The position numbers and the translations under genes are program-made. 64,000 nucleotides of DNA from Planctomycetota bacterium (GTDB lineage: Bacteria; Planctomycetota; UBA1135; UBA2386). The notes under the pieces are model-generated. The model was not told the origin of the DNA, did not search any database, and saw nothing but the letters and a program-made list of their open reading frames with translations. Of the stretch, positions 56,320 to 62,780 are shown piece after piece. Where the stretch lies: assembly GCA_028281765.1 (NCBI GenBank), contig JANQJF010000128.1, positions 62,001 through 126,000 of the forward strand. The letters are read 5' to 3'. The first letter of the stretch is position 1. The number at the start of each line of letters is the position of its first letter.

Positions 56320-56361
56320 AGTAGACGCCCCCACAGGGCATCGACCGAGGGGACGTCTACT
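56320..56361. terminator. Inverted repeat between convergent genes, possible bidirectional terminator
   Basis: AGTAGACGCCCC-type left arm (from 56320) pairs with GGGGACGTCTACT (ends 56361) with one bulged base. It spans the gap between the stops at 56310 and 56357, and the right arm includes the stop codon of the protease gene. No U-tract is seen, so termination is only a suggestion. Confidence 0.55.
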
Positions 56362-59257
56362 CCTGCCAGCGACGGCCGTAGCGCAACCGCTTGCCGTTCA
56401 CCTCGACGCGGACCGCCTTCCCACCGCGGTAGAGCAGGCAGTCGAACTCGACACCGGTGTCGTAGACGCTGTTGTTGTTCACGTAGTTCTCGAGCTGCTC
56501 GAGCTGCGTGAACCGCTTCCAGCCGTCGAGGGTCTTGATCGCGAGGATCAGGTCCCCCGCCTTCAGCGCCTCTACCGAGGGATGCACGCGGTCGACCCGC
56601 GGCATCGACACCGGGAAGTCGAGGGGAACCGCGTTGGGGTCTTCGGTGATCGCCCGCTCGACCGCGATGGCGGCCGCGCGGACCTGCGCGGCATCCGTCG
56701 TGTTCGAACCCTCGAAGCGCATCTGACGGTAGACCTGCCGGACCACTGCCGACTGCGGCGCGATCGCGATCGTCTTGTTCGCGCCGCCACGGCGCACGGT
56801 CAACGAGATGCGATCCTTGTCGCGGTGCTCGAGCAGCGCGTGCGCCAGGTCGACGCTCCAGCGCAGCGCCTGCCCCTCGACCGCGACGACGACGTCGTCC
56901 TTCTGGACGCCGGCGCGCTTGCCGGGACCGAAGCGGTCGACGGCGTGCACGTAGACCTTGCCGTCGCTGTCGAGCACGGTGAACCCGAGGTGCGCCGAGC
57001 GCAGCTTGTCCGTGGTCAGGAGCAGCGAACGCAGCTTCTCGCGCACCGCGTCGACCGCGATCGCGAAGCCCGTCACGTTGCGACCAGAGCCGCCCGCGCT
57101 GTTGATGCCGATCAGACGTCCGTTGATGTCGAGCAGGGCGCCACCGCTGTTGCCGCCGTTGATCTGCGCGTCGGTCTCCATGAGGCTCGGCAGCTTGGTC
57201 GCGCGCCCCTTGACGTTGATCTTCTTGTTCTTCGCGGCGACGACGCCGGCGGTCACCGTGTTCGCGCGACCGTGCGGGTTGCCGATCGCGATCGCGGCCT
57301 CGCCGACCGTGAGCTCTTCCGAGTTGCCGAGCTTGACGAAGTTCACGGACTCGCCCTCGGGGATCTCGAGCTGGATCAATGCGAGATCGTCCTCGCGGGA
57401 CGTGCTGAGAACGCGCGTGTTGTAGCGAGTGCCGTCACCCGTCGACACCGTCACCTCGTAGCCCGCCTTCATCTCGCCGTTACTGTGCGTCGCCGAATCG
57501 ACGACGTGCCAGTTCGTGAGCGCGAGGCCGCTCGCGTCGATGACGACGCCGGAGCCAAGACCGCGCGTCGCAGTCCTGGTCGGGGCGGCGAACGCACCGA
57601 ACGGGTTGTCGTCGGCAACCGGCGCCGTCGGCACTTTCACGTAGACGTTGAGCAGGGCCGAGCGCGTCCGCTCGACGAGGTCGACGATCGGCGTGTGCCG
57701 CAGCTCACGGTCGGCCGGCGCGACCTCCGGCGCTTTGGCCGTCGATTCGTTCGAGCCCGCGTGCTCGTCGAGATCCGCGCCGAACGCCTTGCGCAGCCAG
57801 TCGACGTGCGGCACGTCGTTGAGACCGGTCTCGGTCTTGACCTCGTCGGTGCCGCGCATCGCGGCCTCCATCTCCCACGGATCGAACGCGCCAGCATCCA
57901 CGATCCCGAGCACCCGGCCGGACAGATCGACGAGCGGGCCGCCGCCGTTGCGGCTGTCCGTCTGCGCGTCGGTCTGCACCTGGCGGTCGCGGATCGCCGA
58001 CAGGACGCCCTCCGACACGGTCAGCGCGGTGCCTTCGGGGTTGCCGATCGCGAGCACGGCTTCGCCCTGCATCGCGGATTCGACGCTGCCCCACACGAGC
58101 GGCTCGACCTTCTTGCCGCGGAAGTCGACCTTGAGCAGCGCGATGTTGCCCTTCTTGGCGAGCAGCGTCGCGGAGTAGTCCTTCTTGCCGCCGAACAGCC
58201 GCACTCGCACGTCATTCTCGGACCCGACGATGTGCGCGTTCGTCAGCACGAGCCCCGTCGTGTCGACGATGAAACCCGAACCGATGTGCTTGCGGCGCTG
58301 CACCGCGAACGGATCCTTCAGCCCGAGCTTCTTCGGATCGTCCCCCGCCCGCACCGTCACGATACCGTTCCGTACGGCGGCGACCGCGTCCGCGGTGCCG
58401 CGCGAACGGATCGCGTCGATCCCCGGCGGCGGCCTCAGCAGCGTCGAGTTCTTCGGCTTGCGAGACTGGAACTCGCGGCGGAACACCTTGCGAATCGTGT
58501 CGGCCGCGATCGCGACGCCGAAGCTCGGCTTCTTGAGGTCGGCCGTGGTCGGCTCGCGCACGGCGCGCAGCACGTTGCTCGCGTTACAGAGCCCGAGCAG
58601 ACGACCGGCGGCGTCGACGAGTGCCGCGCTCGCGCAGCGATCCTGGATCGCGGCGGTCGTCAGCACGAACTCGTCGGTGCTCAGCTCGCGCGCGCCGATC
58701 GTGGTCGCGCCGGACGGACGCAGCGCGATGCCCGCGAACACGACGTGATCCTCACCGTCCGGGTAGCCGACGACCGCCGCGGGTTCGCCGACGAGCATCC
58801 CGCTCGAATCGGCGAGCTCGCAGAACGGCAGGCCGATCGACGGCTCGTCGATCGCGAGCAGCGCGAGGTCGAGCTTCTCGTCGTGGGCGACGATCTTCGC
58901 CGCCATCTCCTCCCGACCCTCGACCTCGACGAACACGGTCTTGTCGGTCGCGCCGTGCGCCTCACGGACGAGCGACCAGTGCGTGACGACGAGACCCGAC
59001 GGGTCGACGATCACGCCCGTGCTCGGCCGCTCGATGCGGAACTTCGGCTCGGCCCGCACCTCGATCGACACGAACGCGACCGCCCCGCGCACCTTCGCGA
59101 GGGCATCGGCGATCTGGGTCTTGCGACGCGCGGCCTGGGCCTCGGTGTCCGGTTCGGCCGCGACGATCGAGGCGTTGATCTCCTGGGACGAGACCGGGGC
59201 TGCGGTCAGGAAAACGAGCCCGGCACACACCGGGCGAGCTACACGACTGAGACTCAT
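56357..59257 (-). CDS. Secreted multi-domain trypsin-like (HtrA/DegP-type) protease with three protease-like modules
   Basis: 966 residues; signal peptide MSLSRVARPVCAGLVFLTAA. Three trypsin-like modules: module 1 (about 55-265) has STGVIVDPSGLVVTHWSLVR and DRCASAALVD, with His and Ser positions substituted; module 2 (about 285-480) has IVDTTGLVLTNAHIVGS but RNGGGPLVD, so Ser is replaced; module 3 (about 545-750) has VVIDASGLALTNWHVVD, DDLALIQLE and INGGNSGGALLD, a complete His-Asp-Ser set. Two PDZ-like regions follow (HAVDRFGPGKRAGVQKDDVV, ALKAGDLILAIKTLDGWKRF). Only the third module looks active; the others may be binding modules. Periplasmic quality-control role is inferred from the HtrA family. 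Confidence 0.92.
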   Translation of the reverse strand: MSLSRVARPVCAGLVFLTAAPVSSQEINASIVAAEPDTEAQAARRKTQIADALAKVRGAVAFVSIEVRAEPKFRIERPSTGVIVDPSGLVVTHWSLVREAHGATDKTVFVEVEGREEMAAKIVAHDEKLDLALLAIDEPSIGLPFCELADSSGMLVGEPAAVVGYPDGEDHVVFAGIALRPSGATTIGARELSTDEFVLTTAAIQDRCASAALVDAAGRLLGLCNASNVLRAVREPTTADLKKPSFGVAIAADTIRKVFRREFQSRKPKNSTLLRPPPGIDAIRSRGTADAVAAVRNGIVTVRAGDDPKKLGLKDPFAVQRRKHIGSGFIVDTTGLVLTNAHIVGSENDVRVRLFGGKKDYSATLLAKKGNIALLKVDFRGKKVEPLVWGSVESAMQGEAVLAIGNPEGTALTVSEGVLSAIRDRQVQTDAQTDSRNGGGPLVDLSGRVLGIVDAGAFDPWEMEAAMRGTDEVKTETGLNDVPHVDWLRKAFGADLDEHAGSNESTAKAPEVAPADRELRHTPIVDLVERTRSALLNVYVKVPTAPVADDNPFGAFAAPTRTATRGLGSGVVIDASGLALTNWHVVDSATHSNGEMKAGYEVTVSTGDGTRYNTRVLSTSREDDLALIQLEIPEGESVNFVKLGNSEELTVGEAAIAIGNPHGRANTVTAGVVAAKNKKINVKGRATKLPSLMETDAQINGGNSGGALLDINGRLIGINSAGGSGRNVTGFAIAVDAVREKLRSLLLTTDKLRSAHLGFTVLDSDGKVYVHAVDRFGPGKRAGVQKDDVVVAVEGQALRWSVDLAHALLEHRDKDRISLTVRRGGANKTIAIAPQSAVVRQVYRQMRFEGSNTTDAAQVRAAAIAVERAITEDPNAVPLDFPVSMPRVDRVHPSVEALKAGDLILAIKTLDGWKRFTQLEQLENYVNNNSVYDTGVEFDCLLYRGGKAVRVEVNGKRLRYGRRWQE

Positions 59258-59335: not shown

Positions 59336-60229
59336 TCACTTGCCCGCGCCGGCGACCTGCTCGTTGTGTTCTTGGCGCGCGATGCAGAGCTCGAGCACGC
59401 GCTTCTGGCGCTCGAGGAAATACTGGATCGACTGCCGGAACGACTCGGTCATGTTGTTCTGCATGTCGCCGTAGCCGACCCACATCGACCCCTTCGTGTG
59501 GGCTTTGCTGACCGCGACGTAGAACTTCGTCGTCCCCTTCAGAGACGGCAGATACTTCTCCGCAGGCTTCAGGATCTTGGCGAACGCCTTGGCGTCCTTG
59601 CGGCCCTCTCCCTTGGAGGCGAAGCCCGCCAGGTTGCTGTGCGCTTTCTCGACGCCTTTGAGCGCGGCGCGTAGATCCTTCAGTTTCGCCTCCGCGACGG
59701 ACGGCTTGAGCTTGAACGGCGTGACGAACCGCTTGCCCTTGCACACGGTGCAGGGATAGCCGCCCTTGCCCTTGCAGCAGCCGCACTTCGCCGGCTTCTT
59801 GGAGCCGCCCTTGATCGGGAAGCTGCCCTCGTTGCCACACACCATGCATACCTGCACGCCGGCCCCCATGCATCCCGGGCACGGCGACTGCTCGAGGATG
59901 TCGATCGTCTTGCCCGTCGCGTTGCAGATGCGGCACGGCGCGGCCCCCTTGCCCTCGGGGTCCTTGCTGACGTCGCGCTTGCACTCGAGGCACGACTTCG
60001 TGCGCTCGGCGCGGGCGCAGTGCGGGCACTCGTGCTTCTTCGACCGCTTGCACGTCGGGCACGGAGCGGTCTCGAACTTCTTCCACTGCAGGAACCCGGC
60101 GTCGTCCTTCTTCGTCTCCCGCTCGAGCTTGTCGGGCGGGACCCAACCGAGCGGCATCAGCTTTTGCGCGCCGGCGTCGACGGCGAACAGGAGACCGACG
60201 AGAAGTGCGAGGATCTTGGCGTGATTCAC
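59336..60229 (-). CDS. Secreted protein with DnaJ-type CxxC zinc-finger-like repeats
   Basis: 297 residues from GTG 60229; the longer frame to 60415 lacks a signal-compatible start. Signal peptide VNHAKILALLVGLLFAVDAG ending AQ. At least eight CxxC pairs: APCPTCKRSKKHECPHC, SCLECKRDVS, CRICNATGKT, CPGCMGAGVQVCMVCG and KCGCCKGKGGYPCTVCKG. They resemble DnaJ CxxCxGxG repeats but no J domain is present. The C-terminal half is helical (LKDLRAALKGVEKAHSNLAG). Divergent from the tandem-Sec gene at 60479 with 249 bp between, a shared promoter region. A secreted Zn or Fe-S scaffold is possible. Confidence 0.85.
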   Translation of the reverse strand: MNHAKILALLVGLLFAVDAGAQKLMPLGWVPPDKLERETKKDDAGFLQWKKFETAPCPTCKRSKKHECPHCARAERTKSCLECKRDVSKDPEGKGAAPCRICNATGKTIDILEQSPCPGCMGAGVQVCMVCGNEGSFPIKGGSKKPAKCGCCKGKGGYPCTVCKGKRFVTPFKLKPSVAEAKLKDLRAALKGVEKAHSNLAGFASKGEGRKDAKAFAKILKPAEKYLPSLKGTTKFYVAVSKAHTKGSMWVGYGDMQNNMTESFRQSIQYFLERQKRVLELCIARQEHNEQVAGAGK

Positions 60230-60478
60230 GGGTGGGCCTTCGTCCGGGGTACGCTCAGACGATAGTCGCGCCGCGCACCGCGGAGCAAGCACCTCCGCTG
60301 GGGCCTCCAGGTCCATCGCTTTCCGCCTGGCCCGACGCGACTTACGCCGACCGTGCTCACAACCGGCCCCCGGGTAAGGAAATGGCTCGACATCCTGTTC
60401 CCGAGCCGTTCTCACGCTCTATACTCCCCGTGTTCGCCCGATGACCTGCCCAAGGACCTCGGACCTCTCGGAGACAGA

Positions 60479-61456
60479 ATGCTCAACTCGCTAGTCAGAC
60501 TTCTGCCGCTCGCGTTCCTCATGGCCATCATCGCCGCGCCGGCTGGCGCGGCCCCCCAGTGATGAACGGGCGGTGGTAGCTCGGGTCCGAGCTACGGTGG
60601 TCCCGGTGACGGGGGTGGTGGCGGCACGGGTGGCGGCCTCGGTGGAGGCGGCGGCCGTGGCGGCGCTGGTGGCGGCACGGGCGGCGGCATGACCGGCCCG
60701 GGCGGCGGCGGCCCCTCGACGGGCGGCGGCGGCATCCAGGTCGACATGCGTCGGCGTGAGACGTCGAAGAACCTGCTGAAGATCGACTGGAAGCACCCGG
60801 TCTACGCTCCGGACCTCGGCAAGGTCGAGACCGGTCGCACGACGACGGGCGCCGCGTTCACGGCGCTGCCGCGCGACAAGGCGTTCGTCGAGATCAGCGA
60901 AGACGGCGACGATCGCCCGCTTCTCGTCCTGCGTGAGTGCACGAAGTGCAAGGGCAGCGACGCCGCCCTTCTGTCGCGCAAGCTCGACAACGAGAAGACC
61001 GTCCTGATGACGCGCTGGTTCCGCTGCGTGAAGCTGCCGACCGACGTGCTCGAGAAGGACCACCCGTTCCGCAACCTCTTCGCCGAAGAGCATCCGCCGC
61101 ACTTGTTCCTCTGCGACAAGCACGGCAAAAACGTGATCCCGCTCGACGGCAACCAGGCTCAGACCCTTCTCTGGAAGGAGATGAGCAAGGTGCTGAAGGA
61201 GCGCTACGACCGCGACGCCAAGAAGGCGATCAAGGAGATCCGCCGCCTCCTGAACAAGTTCGACCTCCTCGACTACAAGGAGGACGAATACATGGCGCGC
61301 CTCGATGACGAGCTCGTGAAGAACGGCCCGAAGTCGTCCAAGGCGAAGAAGCTCCGCAAGCAGATCGACAAGGTCCGCAAGGAGCGGGACGCCATGAAGA
61401 AGAAGGAGCGCAAGCTGTTCGACCTCAAGCTGCGCGAACCAAAGGCAAGTGACTGA
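60479..61456 (+). CDS. Secreted tandem-Sec selenoprotein (UGA-UGA at 60560-60565) with Gly-rich linker and CxxC region
   Basis: Read from ATG 60479 (GGAG 7 nt upstream) to TGA 61454-61456 with UGAs at residues 28 and 29 as Sec, this is 325 residues. Signal peptide MLNSLVRLLPLAFLMAIIAA ends near PAGA, and the mature protein begins APQUUTGGGSSG. A ~60-residue Gly-rich linker follows. The folded part has LVLRECTKCKGSDAALL with a CxxC pair, then RWFRCVKL and HLFLCDKHG. The last 90 residues are Lys-rich coiled coil (KKLRKQIDKVRKERDAMKKK). Without recoding, translation stops after the signal peptide. An ATG at 60689 would lack the signal peptide. No family recognised; a redox-active UU pair plus CxxC is inferred. 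Confidence 0.9.
60576..60595 (+). promoter_or_regulatory. Candidate bacterial SECIS hairpin for the tandem UGA pair
   Basis: GTAGCTCG (60576-60583) pairs perfectly with CGAGCTAC (60588-60595) around GGTC. Loop starts 18 nt after the second UGA and 21 nt after the first, so one hairpin could serve both codons. Eight uninterrupted pairs in a Gly-rich coding stretch is more than low-complexity sequence would need. Confidence 0.87.
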
Positions 61457-62780
61457 GAGACCGGTCTTGAACCAACTCCCCACTGCGGGTCGCCGCGCGC
61501 GACCCGCCCAAAAGCGCCCCGGTCTGTCGAAGGTCGGGGCGTTTGCCGTAGTCGTCTTGTCGCTCCTCCTCGCGGCTCCCGCGCTCGCACAGCGTGACGA
61601 GCCGGACCGCAAGCCGAAGAAGGACGCGGACAAGTGGAAAGAGGACCCCTACACGAAGAACGAGACCGAGGCGCTCGAGAAGGCGGGCATCGTCAAGCTC
61701 GGGCCAATCGGCTGGCGCCCCTCGTTCACGAGTGAGCGCATCGAGCAAGCCCTCGGCGACGTCAAGATCCGTTGGATCGAGACGCCGCACTTCCGCCTGG
61801 GATGCGCCGTCAAGTCGTGGAAGGTGCCCTCCCACCCCAAGAAGGTCCGCAAGCGCGTCTACGAGGAGATCGCGCGGCTCCGGAAGAAGCTGCCGACCGT
61901 CAAGAAGAAGCCGAAGACGCTGAGCCCTTGGCTGCGCGCGCATCTGTTCGCCCAGCGGCTCGAAGAGCTCTACGCCGAGATCCAGGAGATCCTCGGCGTC
62001 ACGGACGAGAGCTTCCCGAAGGACGGCGAGAAGATCGACGGCGAGTACATGGGGCGCGGCCCCTACCTCGGCGTGAAGGGCAAGTTCAACGTCTTGATCC
62101 TGCAGAAGGAGTCCGACTGCGCACGCTTCCTGTCGACGTTCACCCCGTCGAAGGGCACGGATCCGAGCCGCTGGTTCACCGCAGAGCCTGCCGACTGCTT
62201 CCTGTTCGCCACGGCCGTCGAGTTCGCCGAGGAGGCGTACAAGGACGACACCGCTATGTGGGCGCACGTGCAGTTCAACCTGGTCAGCAACCTCACCGAC
62301 GCGTACCGCGGCTACATGTACCGCATGCCGGTCTGGTGGCAGGAAGGACTGGCCCACGACTTCCGTCGCGAAGTCTACGAGGAGCGCAACGCGTTCTCGG
62401 GGATCGCGGACAAGACCGAACGCCTGTTCAAGAAGGAGTTCTCGAACTGGGAGAAGCGCTGCTACGGCCTCATCAAGCACGGCCTGACGAAGCCCGCTCG
62501 CGTGACGTGCACTCAATTCACCCACAACAAGCTGAAGTTCGTCGACCACATCGAGATCTGGTCGCGAGTGCAGTTCTTGCGCAGCCTTGGAGACGACAAG
62601 TTCGGCAAGCTGATCCACGCGCTGAGCGGTTGCTACACCGCGCAGGGGACCGGCGCGCCGAAGGAGTACATCCTCAAGGTGCAGGAGCAAGCGATCCAAG
62701 ACATCTGGGGCTGGTCGCTCGACGAGTTCGACGAGGCTTGGAAGAAGTGGGCGAAGAAGAAGTACAAGAACGCCAAGTAG
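61449..62780 (+). CDS. Secreted protein of unknown function, DUF1570-like
   Basis: 443 residues from GTG 61449, which overlaps the selenoprotein stop by 8 nt; a TTG at 61467 is an alternative. After a long basic n-region there is a signal helix (GAFAVVVLSLLLAAPALAQ). Residues 80-440 are helical: KIRWIETPHFRLGCAVKSWK and MPVWWQEGLAHDFRREVYE resemble peptidase-like DUF1570 proteins, where the catalytic site would read HE; here QEGLAHDF lacks the HExxH zinc motif. The overlap places it in an operon with the tandem-Sec gene. Confidence 0.72.
   Translation: MTERPVLNQLPTAGRRARPAQKRPGLSKVGAFAVVVLSLLLAAPALAQRDEPDRKPKKDADKWKEDPYTKNETEALEKAGIVKLGPIGWRPSFTSERIEQALGDVKIRWIETPHFRLGCAVKSWKVPSHPKKVRKRVYEEIARLRKKLPTVKKKPKTLSPWLRAHLFAQRLEELYAEIQEILGVTDESFPKDGEKIDGEYMGRGPYLGVKGKFNVLILQKESDCARFLSTFTPSKGTDPSRWFTAEPADCFLFATAVEFAEEAYKDDTAMWAHVQFNLVSNLTDAYRGYMYRMPVWWQEGLAHDFRREVYEERNAFSGIADKTERLFKKEFSNWEKRCYGLIKHGLTKPARVTCTQFTHNKLKFVDHIEIWSRVQFLRSLGDDKFGKLIHALSGCYTAQGTGAPKEYILKVQEQAIQDIWGWSLDEFDEAWKKWAKKKYKNAK

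Follow-up and report, generated by a model that had tools for sequence, protein, structure and literature searches.

Layout of the gene

A 64,000-nucleotide stretch of DNA from a Planctomycetota bacterium (assembly GCA_028281765.1, contig JANQJF010000128.1, positions 62,001 to 126,000 of the forward strand), referred to as the window, was analyzed for a candidate selenoprotein gene with two adjacent in-frame UGA codons. From the sequence, the reading frame at 60479–61456 of the plus strand starts with ATG at 60479, passes through TGA-TGA at 60560–60565 and ends with TGA at 61454–61456. The window letters at 60554–60568 are CCC CAG TGA TGA ACG. When TGA was read as selenocysteine (Sec, U), the product consisted of a leader resembling a signal peptide, the segment AGAAPQ-UU, a Gly-rich linker, a domain with a CxxC motif and a helical C-terminus.

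An earlier description made from the letters alone (the sequence-only reading) had placed two in-frame UGAs between a signal peptide and a Gly-rich linker with a CxxC domain, all in a single frame, followed by a perfect 8-bp stem with a GGUC loop. Both features were seen at the positions in Table 1. The same description had the hairpin start 18 nt past one UGA and 21 nt past the other. These distances are correct for the apical loop and wrong for the start of the hairpin, which lies at 10 and 13 nt.

Codon states among homologues

A total of 61 genomes, including the source genome, were searched, and the family was present in 51. A named genome collection was also scanned, and the best 80 of 91 relative-encoding stretches were taken, which lay in 78 loci (numbered with L; genomes are numbered with G). 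The taxon-bearing titles among these relatives all gave Planctomycetota or a subgroup of it, and some titles gave only "bacterium". In a sample of the phylum, the family was found in 7 of 149 genomes with the source genome counted, and the family is therefore lineage-restricted. A plasmid collection gave no match. Two carriers with a complete chromosome, Planctomycetes bacterium Pla86 and Poly30 (L139 and L137), both had UU.

Both sets were pooled, and the codons of the aligned site were determined in 113 distinct homologues, by eye in L046 and L102. The site was UU in 60, UC in 23, CU in 3, U with a different second residue in 7 (UG 3, UR 2, UN 1, and UP 1), and C with a different second residue in 15 (CP 11; CA, CV, CS, and CG 1 each). 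The remaining 5 had neither residue or lay on a truncated contig. Of 108 homologues, 81 had Q and 25 had G just before the site. The source genome carried three copies: the UU gene of the window, a UC gene (L072), and a C-only gene (L067). An in-frame UGA with Cys homologues at the same position is the pattern expected of a bacterial selenoprotein. The sequence-only reading had named stop codons other than UGA at this site as evidence against it. Neither TAA nor TAG occurred at either codon in the 113 homologues, and UU, UC, CU, single-U, and single-C forms were found instead.

The history of the site was investigated with a quick maximum-likelihood tree, built from 110 domains, in which several long branches were of unsure placement. 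On this tree the UU label changed 13 times, and at least seven changes were forced by well-supported branches. Position 2 switched between Sec and Cys (TGA versus TGC or TGT) within tight clades. Among close relatives, L116 was UC while L110 and L128 were UU, and L138 was UC while L112 and L106 were UU. The ratio of nonsynonymous to synonymous substitution rates (dN/dS) after the site ranged from about 0.02 to 0.39 and was below 0.4 in all nine pairs, which were chosen by hand. A lack of conservation after the UGAs, which had been put forward as a counter-indication, was not observed in these pairs.

One gene (L066) had the state UN inside a Cys-only clade, next to a C-only copy. Its loop, AGTT, lay at the usual spacing, and its stem was interrupted. 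Sec was possibly regained or retained there.

Selenocysteine machinery

The source genome contained tRNA-Sec (selC, 73.6 bits), SelB, SelA, and SelD, all above cut-off; the absence of any of these four had also been listed beforehand as a reason to reject a Sec reading. The selD gene of this genome contained one in-frame TGA. In the 61 genomes, SelB was above cut-off in 58 and tRNA-Sec was detected in 54. Of 41 genomes, 39 had a detected SelD, and in 37 of these the gene contained one TGA.

SelD was used as a control for the hairpin analysis. Thirty SelD loci were examined (L155, L159–L184, and L186 among them), and 28 had the UGA in context. In 23 of the 28, a hairpin started from the 27th nt past the UGA, with the loop CGGG(A/C) or CGUG(A/C). 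These loops differ from the AGUU and GGUC loops of the UU family.

Conservation of the hairpin

A selenocysteine insertion sequence (SECIS) was sought with a strict test, namely a hairpin over a threshold strength whose loop has a GU core, with the GU 16–24 nt past codon 2. Of 93 Sec-type genes, 64 had such a hairpin (UU 44/60, UC 15/23, and CU 2/3). It was present in 0 of 15 Cys-only genes, in 3 of 93 at a position 42 nt downstream in the same genes, and in a mean of 3.3 of 93 synonymously shuffled genes (maximum 12 in 200 shuffles). Hairpins with any loop discriminated less, at 71/93 versus 1/15 in Cys-only genes, 19/93 downstream, and 16.8/93 after shuffling. The GU lay exactly 20 nt past codon 2 in 56 of 93 Sec-type genes versus 0 of 15 Cys-only genes. 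The covariation of the arms was investigated in these 56 genes. Arms from the same gene paired at 6.09 of 7 positions on average, versus 4.44 when each arm was combined with one from another gene (the highest value of 1000 was 4.91), and up to six pair types per position were found in the genes' own arms.

In the window, the 40 nt past the UGAs folded at −22.4 kcal/mol (z −2.68), and 2 of 200 shuffles were equally good. The criteria for bacterial SECIS elements (bSECIS) given in PMC13188914 are a loop of 3–9 nt, an upper stem of 4–16 bp, G in loop position 1 or 2, a spacing of 16–37 nt, and a minimum free energy of −7.5 or lower. The window hairpin lay within all these limits for both UGAs, with the loop GGUC, spacings of 21 and 18 nt, −20.6 kcal/mol, and 14 pairs when extended. 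Fifty of 60 UU genes passed for both UGAs, and 74 of 93 Sec-type genes passed for every UGA.

The distance from UGA to loop was compared in a wider scan, in which only genes with a hairpin over threshold were counted. The loop G was 20–26 nt from the UGA in 15 of 15 UC genes and 3 of 3 CU genes. Both UGAs were 20–26 nt from the loop G in 42 of 45 UU genes; in one gene this was so for UGA 1 only, and in two for neither. Because both UGAs fall inside the range of the UC and CU genes, a single hairpin would appear to serve both.

Domain structure and family assignment

The three-dimensional structure of the window protein was predicted by AlphaFold2. The predicted local distance difference test score (pLDDT) was at least 90 for 192 of 325 residues, nearly all past residue 90. 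The model showed a strand-CxxC-helix arrangement followed by two long helices, and the linker was modelled without confidence. The CxxC (Cys154/Cys157) stood right after the first strand of the domain (residues 148–152), as in the thioredoxin superfamily. The top 20 Foldseek matches were mostly thioredoxin-related by title (1j08, 3h79, 2lst, and the DsbD C-domain); these matches were weak, with a best E of 0.08. The results suggested that the domain probably has a thioredoxin-like fold.

Of 110 domains, 105 matched the CxxC pattern; one row counted as lacking it (L119) reads CECNECIG, which the pattern missed. By site state, Cys183 was present in UU 59/59, UC 22/23, CU 3/3, U with a different residue 4/6, and C-only 4/15. 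The closest upstream Met that was 14 or more residues away lay 14–31 residues ahead of the site in 102 homologues, with a median of 25.5.

No known family was assigned. The best match of the window protein was 15.6 bits in NCBIfam (cut-off 110) and 11.3 in Pfam (cut-off 29.9). When 75 members were compared, no family matched more than 6 of them among the best 25 of 64 NCBIfam families, or more than 8 among the best 25 of 102 Pfam families. A sequence search of the PDB found no family.

Table 1. Features of the selenoprotein gene and the adjoining gene (window coordinates)
Feature	Position	Strand	Remarks
Selenoprotein gene	60479–61456	+	325 residues, UU at 28–29; stop is the third TGA, 61454–61456
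Signal peptide, 27-residue leader ending AGAAPQ	60479–60559	+	Putative cut AGA|APQUU or close by (manual AxA rule)
UGA 1, Sec28	60560–60562	+	U or C in 108/113 homologues; remaining 5 without either or truncated
UGA 2, Sec29	60563–60565	+	U, C or a different residue in homologues
Gly-rich low-confidence tether, Sec pair to domain	60566–60733	+	pLDDT <50 at residues 29–73 and 75–84
SECIS core, 8-bp stem, loop GGUC at 60584–60587	60576–60595	+	Loop 18 nt past UGA 2 and 21 nt past UGA 1; weaker lower stem extends to about 60567–60605
Predicted thioredoxin-like domain	60866–61204	+	AlphaFold2 model and Foldseek titles
CxxC (CTKC), Cys154/Cys157	60938–60949	+	Invariant in a 75-sequence alignment
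Third conserved Cys183 (WFRC)	61025–61027	+	84/85 UU/UC/CU proteins scored, 4/15 C-only
Two long C-terminal helices, residues 247–282 and 287–314	61217–61420	+	Probably coiled coil (AlphaFold2 model)
Partner gene, putative pseudo-peptidase	61449–62780	+	Start uncertain; gluzincin-like fold without HExxH

Partner gene and neighbouring genes

Of the 78 named loci, 75 had a relative of the partner gene next to the selenoprotein gene. In L080 and L144, which lacked it, the sequence runs out shortly past or inside the gene, while the third locus without it, L114, has room. The partner product begins with a leader resembling a signal peptide, and its model resembled the peptidase domain of collagenase T in a structure comparison (E 7.9e-4). 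The product of 61449–62780 matched no Pfam or NCBIfam family. The HExxH zinc motif of gluzincin metallopeptidases was found in 0 of 52 partner proteins. Because the fold is gluzincin-like and HExxH is missing from all 52, the partner is probably a pseudo-peptidase that binds instead of cutting. The overlap of the downstream gene, from which production in vivo had been argued, holds only if GTG at 61449 is the start; the gap varies among relatives, and the overlap is weak evidence of expression.

Two loci, L084 and L095, each contained two UU genes near each other, a local duplication. The pseudo-peptidase gene lay between the two UU genes in L084 and after both in L095.

The upstream gene at 59336–60415 (minus strand) and the downstream phytanoyl-CoA dioxygenase-like gene had relatives in 0 of 78 named loci, and the HtrA-like gene in 1 of 78. 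The upstream gene is divergent from the selenoprotein gene. Its product is Cys-rich with repeated CxxC pairs and had no Pfam or NCBIfam match. The gene at 56357–59257 (minus strand, 966 residues) apparently encodes several trypsin/HtrA-like repeats (GNSGG/GGPL, by eye).

Proposed mechanism and alternative explanations

The product is best explained as a selenol/thiol oxidoreductase that is exported and bears a Sec-Sec arm tethered at its N-terminus, in which both UGAs are decoded as Sec through one SECIS (probability about 0.85). Sequence comparison supported Sec at both positions, conservation of the SECIS, purifying selection, and a linked partner gene. The tandem Sec proposed by the sequence-only reading is supported by the interchange of U and C, the sel genes, the conserved region after the UGAs, and the hairpin in most Sec-type genes.

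In the proposed mechanism, SelB would deliver Sec at both adjacent UGAs, with the one coding-region SECIS within reach of each. After export, a flexible Gly-rich tether ahead of the CxxC domain would carry the Sec-Sec pair, a few residues in from the mature N-terminus. The tethered UU, or UC and CU in relatives, may act as a fast dichalcogenide, passing electrons to and from the CxxC and a substrate. Judging from this anatomy, the most likely role would be extracytoplasmic selenol/thiol chemistry. Export, the sharing of one hairpin by both UGAs, the joining of the pair as a diselenide or a selenylsulfide, a relay to the CxxC, and a substrate are parts of the scheme that we infer.

Several observations weigh against this explanation. 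Three genomes with UU genes (G019, G029, and G030) had no detected tRNA-Sec, and three (G002, G025, and G029) had no SelB above cut-off; G002, G019, G025, and G029 are drafts of 62–81% completeness, and G030 is 93% complete. The SelD gene of the source genome (L155), a natural control, had only a weak hairpin and was among the 5 of 28 without the shared one. The published bSECIS criteria were also passed by 7 of 15 Cys-only genes and discriminate poorly in GC-rich linkers, and the stricter GU-core test therefore carries the weight. No hairpin over the threshold was present in 29 of 93 Sec-type genes, several of them with interrupted stems. The expected conservation of the hairpin, with covarying arms, was thus borne out in the majority of Sec-type genes and not in all. 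Cys-only paralogues retain a single Cys together with the CxxC, and the pair is therefore not required in every case. The tail and the CxxC are not strictly coupled, with two Sec-type genes, L072 (UC) and L063 (UG), lacking the CxxC. The association of Cys183 with the Sec-type site was largely due to one Cys-only clade. None of the Foldseek matches reached E ≤ 0.001.

The main functional rival is that the Sec pair binds a soft metal or a selenium species and is not a redox relay. Adjacent CU occurs in proteins whose names suggest metals or mercury (SaoL, HgcA, and MbdU; PMC13188914, Table 1), and a flexible tail could bind or deliver a metal. However, the CxxC of the probable thioredoxin-like domain is nearly universal (105/110), the single-Cys, U-G, U-R, and U-N forms are expected to be poor metal binders, and only the pseudo-peptidase was constant among the four window neighbour genes tested. 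Metal or selenium binding was considered rather unlikely, and the redox arm was preferred.

A second alternative is that only one UGA is decoded as Sec. A different tRNA would then read the other UGA, or this UGA would serve as a regulatory stop, and UU would mainly tune the yield by selenium supply. At position 1, 108 of 113 homologues have U or C, while G, R, N, P, S, V, and A are also accepted at position 2. Against this, position 2 alternates between U and C among close relatives, and the CU genes (3/113) have Sec at position 2 only. Decoding of a single UGA was considered improbable compared with Sec at both.

It is very improbable that both UGAs are true stops, giving a short secreted peptide and a separate domain from an internal start such as ATG 60689. 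Two successive stops terminate well unless recoded, and a 255-codon open reading frame begins at 60689. However, no TAA or TAG stood at the site in the 113 homologues, codon 1 was Cys in the 15 without UGA, and the conservation of the hairpin exceeded the coding constraint. The internal Met falls within the linker, which is not conserved, and an internal start would have no export signal.

Genome-wide use of TGA as a sense codon, which would accommodate the in-frame TGAs of the window gene, is scarcely credible, since that gene ends on TGA, SelD has one TGA at the expected Sec site, and the Sec machinery is complete. Stops with re-initiation and code reassignment were both rejected. An assembly error was rejected as well; dozens of separate assemblies show the same pattern.

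Comparison with known systems and significance

The flexible tail of Sec-type thioredoxin reductase bears a mobile chalcogen pair for a separate redox centre, and the proposed arm would work in a somewhat similar way. In that flavoenzyme the tail is C-terminal, whereas the window family has an N-terminal tail and a thioredoxin-like domain.

The inventory of 119 prokaryotic selenoprotein families published in 2026 (PMC13188914, Table 1) lists UxxU, UxxxxU, and CU, but no UU. Selenoproteins have been reported in Planctomycetes (PMC4807772). A term search of PMC12013277 and PMC9312934 found no passage on consecutive Sec or Planctomycetes. In the literature searched, the only precedent for Sec-Sec was the algal PDI_e; many matches were unrelated uses of "Sec". 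The statement of the sequence-only reading that no characterized bacterial family was known with the UU layout agreed with both Table 1 of PMC13188914 and this literature.

According to PMC7539508, algal PDI_e has consecutive Sec (GUGUU), termed the first there, and a thioredoxin-like fold was detected in most algal PDI-like proteins. The adjacent Sec and the fold resemble those of the window family. Compared by description, PDI_e is eukaryotic and has three Sec, whereas the window family is bacterial, with PQUU or PGUU near the N-terminus and one coding-region SECIS. The UxxU Prx-like proteins, as described in PMC9312934, PMC2398784, and PMC13188914, are also thioredoxin-related and have two Sec near enough for a diselenide. 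Their Sec residues form UxxU, while those of the window family are adjacent and lie outside a domain that retains its CxxC. SaoL, SaoC, HgcA, KCU-star, and MbdU (PMC13188914, Table 1) have an adjacent Sec-containing pair, but it is CU and not UU. None of the models of these five proteins was among the best 25 of 64 NCBIfam families for the 75 members; by list order, any lower-ranked NCBIfam family would match just one member, with an E no better than 0.014.

The family was accordingly filed as a new bacterial selenoprotein family and not as a categorically new system. With confidence a little better than even, vicinal Sec-Sec, made by two successive SelB deliveries at one SECIS, is the state most often found in this bacterial family, and a tethered N-terminal dichalcogenide arm interconverting among UU, UC, and CU has evolved as a separable redox module of an exported thioredoxin-like domain that works with a secreted pseudo-metallopeptidase. 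If this is true, a bacterial family with 93 distinct Sec-type genes and a Sec-Sec motif outside the 2026 prokaryotic inventory would be added. Ordinary annotation would be expected to split such genes at the UGAs. The family would offer a natural test of the decoding of two successive UGAs by one SECIS and SelB, and the natural series of UU, UC, CU, and C forms may be suitable for determining the chemical gain from a second selenium.
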